Origin: Mesorhizobium koreense
GTDB taxonomy: Bacteria > Pseudomonadota > Alphaproteobacteria > Rhizobiales > Rhizobiaceae
Assembly: GCF_031656215.1 (NCBI RefSeq)
Contig: NZ_CP134228.1
Coordinates: 1,879,001 to 1,943,000 of the forward strand
Length of the DNA stretch: 64,000 nt
Direction: 5' to 3'
Shown one piece after another: positions 4,229-60,145 of the stretch. Both the position numbers and the translations under genes were made by a program. The notes under the pieces are model-generated. The model made no database searches and was not told the DNA's origin. It was given only the letters and a program-made list of their open reading frames with translations. Within the stretch, counting starts at the first letter, position 1. Every line of letters starts with the position of its first letter.

Positions 4229-4499
4229 CGAAATCCTCGGAGAGCTGTTCCGGCAAGGCCGGCAGCAAAGAGATAATATTATTTGCCGGGATTTCCAATC
4301 GTGGCCAGGGCCTAACCTCGCGACGCCATTTCTTGATCCGCTTTTCTTCGACGCTCGCCTCGCCGATATCTGAACCGGCATGACGCGCGTCGGGTTGGCC
4401 GGCGAAAACGTGGATGGGATCAAGCCTGCCGGCCTCCGGAAGCCGCTAGCTTCCGCGCTTCCCGCATTTTTCTTCTCTCCTTTTATCCATGCCTTCCGC

Positions 4500-4860
4500 G
4501 TTTCCTCCATACTCCCTTTCAGTTCCTCCCATCGGGAACACCGATCATGACGGTGATTGCGTGGGGAGGAGCCGGCGCCTCCGCCGTGATGCCGACGTGG
4601 CATCACGGCCGGGGAGGTCCCGTCTGGAGGTTCCCCTGGGGGCACTATGACCCCTGCGTGCCGGAAGAAGGCACACAGACCCGAAGCAGAAGAGCGCTTC
4701 GGGAGCAGCGGAACAGGCGGGAACAGAAATCGCCGGACGGGGCGGCCGAGAGGACGCACGTAAATTGCTTAGATGAGCGAGCCTGCCGCCGCCCGTCTTT
4801 CCCAAGTGAACAATGGCCAGGGCCCGAAGGGCAGCGTGGCGAAGATGAGGCATGTCTGGA
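4500..4860 (+). ncRNA. Structured intergenic element, copy 1 (candidate RNA)
   Basis: This lies in a 1.1-kb stretch without genes (4229-5365). A closely matching copy occurs at 59755-60145. Over 4547-4682 the copies differ at only five of 136 positions with no gap; similarity continues more loosely to the shared AACAATGGCCAGGGC near 4808 and upstream to about 4400. A 10-bp stem with a 5-base loop (4584-4608) keeps pairing in copy 2 by two G-U wobbles, which works only for RNA read from the plus strand. Further hairpins are possible at CACCG-N7-CGGTG and GGGGA/TCCCC. Every codon change in the overlapping frames is a replacement, so coding is unlikely. It matches no RNA family I recognise. Confidence 0.45.
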
Positions 4861-4892
4861 AGGCAAATGCGGATAGTCTTTTGCCCCTTCGC

Positions 4893-5052
4893 ACCCCCCT
4901 CTGTCCTGCCGGACATCTCCCCCTCAAGGGGGGAGATTGGCTGGCATCGCGGTCTCCGCCTAACCTTCGGCATTGCAGAAAAGGGGAGCCAAGAGCGCGG
5001 CGGGCTGATCTCCCCCCTTGAGGGGGAGATGTGCGGCAGGACAGAGGGGGGT
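4893..5052. repeat. Large palindromic intergenic repeat (45-bp arms)
   Basis: The left arm 4893-4937 and right arm 5008-5052 are inverted copies with a single mismatch, separated by 70 bases. Each arm starts or ends with ACCCCCCTCTGTCCTGCC and contains a smaller ATCTCCCCC/GGGGGAGAT hairpin. Interspersed elements of this type are common between genes in Mesorhizobium and relatives; this is family knowledge, not a search. The bases from 5053 to 5365 show nothing convincing beyond the leader of the TRAP gene. Confidence 0.85.
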
Positions 5053-5242
5053 ACGCAGGGGCGCAGACAGGAAAGGATGTCCACAACGGCAATAAGCTTC
5101 AGGCGAACATCCCCAAACGCCCGACCGGGCGTCGCGCCCGATGGCGCGCCCCCGCGGAGCTCAACCGCGTCAGCGGCGGTACGGGCGTGAGCGAAAACAA
5201 ACCCGCGAAAAGGAAAACAGCTCTTACGCCAGATTACCTTAG

Positions 5243-59594: not shown

Positions 59595-59754
59595 CCGCCG
59601 CCCCAGCATCACCCTCGCCAAGTTCTCCCAGCCGCTCGGCTCTGCCTCGCCGGCCGGCGAAAACGTGGACAGGATCGCGCAGGCAGTCCTCGTAACTCTC
59701 TGATCCAGCGGCCCTTCGCTTTTTTCTTCGCTTCCCTTTATCCACGCCTTTTTC

Positions 59755-60145
59755 CCTTCCTCCATACTCCCCGTCAGTTCCTCCCACCGGGAACACCGAT
59801 CATGACGGTGATTGCGTGGGGAGGAGCCGGCGCCTCCGCCGTGATGCCGACGTGGCATTGCGGCCGGGGAGGTCCCGCCTGGAGGTTCCCCTGGGGGCAC
59901 TATGACCCCTGCGCGCCGGTAGAAGGCACACAGACCCCGGGACGAGCGCTGGATCTGATCGGAGTGACTACCCTTCGGCAGGTTCAGGGTGAGGCTCGGG
60001 GAGCAGCGGAACAGGCGGGAACAGAAATCGCCGGCGGGGCGCGAGTGTCGCGCCACGTATTTATATTCGGAAGGCACGGCTGAGCGCCCCGCTTCCCGAC
60101 TGAACAATGGCCAGGGCTGGAAGGCAGCGTGGCGATGAAGAGTGC
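59755..60145 (+). ncRNA. Structured intergenic element, copy 2 (candidate RNA)
   Basis: This is the second copy of the element at 4500-4860, in a 564-base stretch without genes (59595-60158). The core 59802-59937 is nearly identical to 4547-4682. The 10-bp stem (59839-59863) has two changes that turn G-C and U-A pairs into G-U and U-G wobbles. About 40 extra bases near 59945-59990, including ACTACCCTTCGGCAGGTTCA, are inserted relative to copy 1. Similarity also extends upstream to GGCCGGCGAAAACGTGGA near 59652. The remaining bases hold nothing else recognisable. Confidence 0.45.

Follow-up and report, generated by a model that had tools for sequence, protein, structure and literature searches.

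Evidence for a multicopy family of modular structured RNA genes in Mesorhizobium koreense and related Rhizobiales

The analysis of a 64-kb window (the whole stretch of 64,000 nucleotides under study) of the Mesorhizobium koreense genome gives good support, by sequence comparison, to a family of structured RNA genes with tens of copies, which is apparently undescribed so far. Each copy is probably a small structured-RNA gene that acts in trans, with copies homogenised by gene conversion and modules swapped between them. The gene would consist of a promoter-like region, the RNA itself (helices P1 to P6 and a long 3' hairpin), and then a short tail hairpin; the RNA would measure about 284 nt in the first copy of the window and more in others. 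The preliminary description had proposed an unrecognised multicopy structured RNA of Rhizobiales or a mobile RNA-like repeat. The RNA proposal gained ground from covariation that spans genera of the family as well as two other families within the order, from a plus-strand wobble asymmetry, from promoter-like upstream sequence, and from the lack of any Rfam match.

The two copies of the window were compared directly. Their cores (4547-4682 and 59802-59937) differ at five of 136 positions, as first reported, namely 4604 C>T, 4605 A>G, 4623 T>C, 4659 T>C, and 4665 A>T. The previously noted 10-bp stem (4584-4593 with 4599-4608) is present, and both changes within it, at 4604 and 4605, convert G-C to G-U and U-A to U-G in copy 2, that is, to plus-strand wobbles, whereas 4659 T>C disrupts the pair 4659-4673 of another helix, P5. 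The similarity between the "two copies" of the preliminary description is real, but the family is larger (31 places in the genome), and the stretch common to both copies (4397-4850 and 59652-60142) is longer than first stated. The structured RNA of copy 1, of type I, was placed at 4520-4803 on the plus strand, with ends predicted from a covariance-model match at 4520-4682 and from the conserved 3' domain. The RNA of copy 2 (59775-60097, plus strand) was located by a model match at contig positions 1938775-1938937 with 163.7 bits, and it carries a longer P6 and a CGGGGCGCG 3' hairpin. As each copy has its own version of P6 and of the 3' hairpin, module exchange is seen within the window itself.

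The single contig of the genome (5,035,462 bases) was searched for further copies. BLAST of positions 4380-4860 returned 56 matches at E <= 10, of which about 29 span the core (40 of 66 candidates scored). The covariance model R2 found 36 places, 31 of them at E <= 1e-11 (150 of 4757 candidates scored); 29 of the 31 reached at least 142.8 bits, two at about 75 bits represent a shortened variant, and the five places at E 0.017 to 0.34 were left out. Outside this genome, the fold modelled by R1 was detected in 55 of 394 genomes of the same family, covering 27 of 109 genera, and the R2 fold in 7 of 397 genomes drawn from the order (five belonging to two other families) and in 1 of 385 drawn from the class, which was the genome of the window. 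Since only 7-10 candidates were scored per genome in these many-genome searches, under stricter filters, the copy numbers and the spread that they give are lower bounds, and the E-values of R1, R2, and the later model R3 are rough. A pattern scan yielded 77 stretches, hosted by Mesorhizobium, Chelativorans, Aminobacter, Paramesorhizobium, Aquamicrobium, Phyllobacterium, Pseudaminobacter, Brucella endophytica, and several MAGs. One copy (93.5 bits) lies in an unannotated stretch of a Phyllobacterium zundukense plasmid; three other matches of the same search were judged by eye to be an unrelated repeat. Plasmid searches with the window copy and two distant copies as queries gave no match, and the 3' hairpin plus tail as query returned two weak matches in Phyllobacterium. 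A viral origin was considered and set aside, as two exact patterns had no match in viral contigs and one distant copy had none in phage records.

The fold was set from alignment A2, which holds 23 sequences (21 copies of this genome and two relatives), and comprises five helices with 43 pairs; this alignment gave model R1. The helices, all on the plus strand, are P1 with the inner hairpin P1b (4522-4572; 4522-4543 with 4551-4572), P2 (4578-4582 with 4613-4617), which encloses P3 (4584-4608, the stem-loop of the preliminary description), P4 with the loop GCAYTAYGA (4639-4654), and P5 (4658-4674). An RNAalifold pairing of columns 63-67 with 148-152 in alignment A1 was replaced by hairpin P5, which is backed by both-side changes seen by eye in L040, L041, L042, and L048.

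Covariation was evaluated in three further alignments. A3 comprises 43 sequences, nine from this genome and 34 from others, and includes part of the R1 training set; 95.0% of its cells were paired against 82.0% after shuffling, with double changes at 23 of 43 pairs. Its covariation score was 0.470 against 0.229 for shuffled data, a value equalled in none of 500 shuffles, and structures slid along the alignment were only 40-56% paired. A4 (77 matches from named genomes, 68 of them distinct) gave 94.5% paired cells, double changes at 26 of 43 pairs, and a score of 0.447 against 0.202 for the control; both A3 and A4 were fitted to the model, so these alignments lean towards the modelled fold. In A6, which has 14 sequences, 13 of them from two other families, 85.4% of cells were paired against 67.0%, and 32 of 43 pairs were doubly changed.

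In A3, P1 and P1b together (19 pairs) had seven doubly changed pairs with 96.8% of cells paired, and P4 (four pairs) had three with 100% paired; all five pairs of P5 and eight of the ten pairs of P3 were doubly changed, the latter rising to nine of ten in A4. P2 was 96.7% paired with zero double changes, and its invariance in A4 follows from the search pattern, which prescribed it. In seven of the 23 A2 copies, the P3 pair 4586-4606 is disrupted, which counts against the fold. Pair-keeping covariation, as expected of a structured noncoding RNA, was found: the covariance model suggested earlier has been built, and base-pair covariation exceeds the shuffled and slid controls across A3, A4, and A6.

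The strand of folding was read from the wobble pairs. G-U exceeded A-C by 212 to 21 in A3, by 331 to 39 in A4, and by 109 to 7 among 21 copies of this genome. With G-U far above A-C, the plus strand is the folded strand, since a minus-strand fold would give the reverse bias and a cruciform no bias. The earlier claim of plus-strand-only pairing, drawn from two copies, holds in these three sets, although this test alone does not tell plus-strand RNA from plus-strand single-stranded DNA. Single-sequence folding of the window copy gave z values of -2.18 (plus) and -2.03 (minus), by which the strands are not told apart.

Many copies in this genome start at a common 5' border block, GCGAAAACGTGGAT (4402-4415, plus strand; 59657-59670 in copy 2), preceded by unrelated sequence, and this block is the inverted partner of block 4482-4493, an inverted pair recognised by eye in other genera. 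From 79 nonredundant sequences among 114 distinct upstreams, two blocks emerged at a near-fixed distance from the first helix. The first, TTTATCCACGCC, lies at about -38 to -27 and corresponds in copy 1 to TTTATCCATGCC (4482-4493, plus strand, by column information); it occupies the -35 position but is not TTGACA. The second (CATAAT, TACAAT, or TATCCT), at about -12 to -6, corresponds to the -10-like hexamer CATACT (4508-4513, plus strand), with TATCAT as a further form among the copies. Of 14 distant upstreams, seven carry TTGACA or TTGACT at about the -35 place, and six of these seven have TAGGAA, TAGCTA, TAGGTC, or TATATA 17 bases on; L234 has CATTAT 18 bases after its TTGAC box. The other seven, including L221 and the copies of genomes G655 and G689, have no TTGAC, and a sigma-70 consensus scan of the window copy found no promoter. 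Transcription from an own promoter is likely. As a separate observation, a palindrome ATTCCTA-N5-TAGGAAT covers the -10 region, in the manner of an operator, in two of the 14 distant upstreams (L222 and L232 (G621)).

At the 3' side, P6 (4680-4703, plus strand) is a variable hairpin that by eye is swapped whole, with different stem-loops between identical borders both in copies of this genome and in relatives. It is followed by the conserved motif CGGAACnGnCGGnnAC..AAATCGCCGG (4709-4736, plus strand), derived from 27 aligned sequences; of the 32 loci chosen at the start, four were not hit by the search expression and a fifth was left out as misplaced. A long GC-rich hairpin ending in CTTTCCC (4737-4803, plus strand) comes next, terminator-like by its position only and occurring, by eye, in two interchangeable versions. 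A search of 4380-4880 for an intrinsic terminator (GC-rich stem plus T run) found none, and the 3' hairpin was not recognised. The tail hairpin GGCCAG..CGTGGC (4815-4840; 60109-60133 in copy 2; plus strand) comes last and also ends the type II copies described below. One version of it resembles helix 8 of SRP RNA, a lead that was dropped because of loop changes in other copies.

Other repeat modules adjoin the element. A 180-bp inverted repeat with CTCCCCCTCAAGGGGGGAGAT arms (4883-5062) lies 3' of copy 1 as a nested module, and repeats with the same arms occur at 12 other loci of this genome, mostly in the same relative place. A last module, CCGACCGGGCGTCGCGCCC...GGGCGTGAGCGAAA (5092-5215), follows many copies, and some of these, L004 and L006 among them, lack the nested palindrome. 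A different repeat, also dispersed (attcccgacactctccgctc...gaggtcgggaatgacg with its variants), is often found 5' of the element, as in L003, L007, L013, L022, and most of L266-L275 in genome G130, where its version contains GAATC, a GANTC site; it may be one of the methylation-site repeats to which PMC1273637 refers.

A second core type was found among 20 places that had the tail hairpin and lay outside the type I matches. Model R3, built from alignment A7 of 16 such and similar loci, matched 19 of these 20 places with at least 70.9 bits, L247 being the one without a match; because 13 of the 19 were in the training set, the independent matches are L237, L239, L242, L245, L246, and L254. The type II RNA is longer (296-432 nt over 20 loci) and, by eye, shares with type I the shapes of the promoter and of P1 as well as the 3' hairpin and the tail; it covaries too, nine of its 29 predicted pairs being doubly changed. 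R3 matched 39 of 394 genomes of the family in 14 of 109 genera, some of the weakest possibly being cross-matches. If the same 394 genomes entered both searches, as the shared genome identifiers suggest, at least one type occurs in 71 of them and both in 23, against 5.4 expected by chance. Within the genus Chelativorans, the type II copies L250, L252, L209, L244, and L245 have, by eye, between zero and two hairpins whose loop is like GGGUGAGAGAC, and an extra hairpin is present within the 3' hairpin of some type II copies.

The two types occupy the same sites in sister species. One orthologous site holds type I in Chelativorans xinjiangense (G345, contig C35) and type II in C. alearense (G304, C32) and C. 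salis (G382, C18); at another the arrangement is reversed, with type I in C. alearense (C12) and type II in C. xinjiangense (C42). In C. salis C9 and C17 and C. alearense C31, R1 had no match at E <= 10, and R3 had only one, at E 0.42. Clean empty sites were absent from the orthologous places of these three species, which held other repeats, cores, or sequence instead. In C. alearense, the alignable tract begins at -31 in five of six other copies and reaches at least +327, the outer flanks differ, and an identical 161-base core is present in six of seven fetched copies. The ten type II copies among 15 regions of genome G130, nine of them closely similar, are split three to seven by 3' hairpin version, and one of their hairpin pairs is G-U, A-U, or G-C depending on the copy (both by eye). 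The mean pairwise identity of 28 copies in the genome of the window is 94.5% in the core but 56.7% over the 80 bases upstream of the promoter-like block. Conserved cores, diverged flanks, and modules swapped at fixed sites would fit gene conversion better than plain transposition. Recombination of this kind between shared segments would keep the dispersed copies alike, and the same recombination would exchange entire hairpins, and even entire cores, between copies that stay in place.

The neighbouring genes were surveyed for 105 copies (28 from this genome and 77 from named genomes) with a crude codon-bias gene call, under which 76 were classified as ++ (30), -- (10), +- (19), or -+ (17), while 25 lay too near an end and four had no call. 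The excess of tandem ++ over -- (p 0.002) could be a hint of a cis effect or of read-through, and would agree with a leader or 3'-UTR element regulating the adjacent gene. However, the downstream gene is opposite in 29 of the 76, the neighbours are unrelated (nine of ten tested belong to ordinary Pfam families such as GatB, gyrase A, EPSP synthase, and cytochrome bd oxidase), and the promoter-like block precedes the RNA itself; a cis-acting role is thereby weakened to the point that we regard it as very improbable. Since the neighbours occur in all four arrangements and come from ordinary families, the RNA would rather act in trans, as RNA. A small protein gene starting at the ATG at 4547 has in its favour a frame of about 48 codons that, by eye, is uninterrupted in 26 of the 28 copies of this genome. 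Against it, all four changed codons of copy 2 in this frame are replacements, as the preliminary description had pointed out, L002 is frameshifted, L013 has stops, the ATG is CGC by eye in Chelativorans and several others, and indels vary across genera in a way that keeps pairing rather than frame. We consider a protein product hardly credible, less so even than the cis-acting element.

The other part of the preliminary description, a mobile RNA-like repeat, was supported only in part, by the exchange of cores and by the differences in presence from one species to another; target duplications and clean empty sites were not found, nor was a Y1, TnpB, or reverse transcriptase (RT) match in the genome of the window. 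A selfish non-autonomous element that needs an RNA or single-stranded DNA fold for its own mobilisation, after the model of RAYT/REP units, IS605-type elements with guide RNA, or retroelements, would account for the many dispersed copies and their patchy spread, the presence/absence differences between sister species, the identical C. alearense cores, and the short conserved 5' and 3' borders, and single-stranded DNA would also tolerate G-T pairs on one strand. Yet the longest direct repeats at the junctions measured 5.32 bases against 5.27 for mismatched junctions (from 25 of the 28 copies, with several of the 5' borders badly placed), and the flanks are far more diverged than the cores, unlike dead copies. 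In eight copy-bearing genomes, the Y1 transposase domain PF01797 was found in one, the reverse transcriptase domain PF00078 (RVT_1) in three, and the TnpB zinc domain PF07282 in none. The genome of the window and genomes G130, G304, G411, and G621 had none of the three, which weakens present-day mobilisation by RAYT, TnpB, or RT in the former; an extinct or a different enzyme may have acted. The selfish element is, in our judgement, unlikely, and we continue with the trans-acting RNA gene as the preferred reading.

Several known systems share single traits with this family. OLE, GOLLD, ROOL, and HEARO are large RNAs with a complex conserved fold whose function is not known; the present RNA differs in having no Rfam match, tens of near-alike copies, and swapped modules. 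REP/BIME sequences with RAYT and IS605-family elements with guide RNA likewise occur as many dispersed, hairpin-rich copies, but the genome of the window has no match to their Y1 transposase or TnpB zinc domain. At the gathering cut-off, Rfam 15 returned zero matches for the 64-kb window and 17 related loci, and membership in an Rfam family was rejected. Below the cut-off, L003 matched, on the nested palindrome, MNV_3UTR (33.4 of 70 bits, E 1.6e-5), mir-2545, and DUF3800-IV, together with two more miRNA models at other places of the element, whereas L024 had no match; five type II loci matched three miRNA models and the Ruegeria Trans44_sRNA (18.8 of 108 bits, E 0.088).

Genes for structured RNAs are a known kind, and so are mosaic intergenic repeats. 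The Rhizobium-specific intergenic mosaic elements (RIME) and the Sm repeats of Sinorhizobium meliloti are also dispersed intergenic repeats of Rhizobiaceae (cited in other papers as Osteras 1995, 1998); the comparison was by description, and the passages on them mention no covarying fold or promoter. In S. meliloti, 26 REP elements and 16 repeats are reported to be transcriptionally active, according to the relevant passages of one survey (PMC2873474). The suhB RNA and other multicopy alphaproteobacterial sRNAs also occur in several copies per genome, and the passages on suhB describe a putative promoter and terminator and no fixed neighbours (PMC1273637, PMC3927594). In these passages, five and four copies are given as examples with little conserved structure, in contrast to the 31 places and the large covarying fold of the present family, which also, unlike the suhB family, has no Rfam match. 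Our literature search linked no paper to this RNA family, a result that covers subscription papers poorly and hence is no proof of absence.

A wider reading is that these copies form a new RNA class, with at least two core types, promoter-like and 3' ends in common, tens of dispersed copies, and hairpins or cores shuffled between fixed sites with pairing preserved, a modular repertoire with no adjacent protein partner whose job or selfish cycle is unlike those of known bacterial RNAs. We put this forward tentatively, as a possibility that we would not yet favour.

The passages available from two rhizobial sRNA surveys show how such repeats have been handled: one dropped repeat-mapping reads before counting, yet reported some transcribed repeats (PMC2873474), and another excluded intergenic regions with RIME or Sm repeats (PMC2245857). 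If it is true that repeats of this kind are expressed RNA genes, the practice of repeat exclusion has hidden a sizeable RNA family. Given their copy number, within-genome covariation, and swapped cores, these repeats lend themselves to the study of how RNA genes evolve in concert, and the family bears on whether an RNA can spread without a known transposase or reverse transcriptase.
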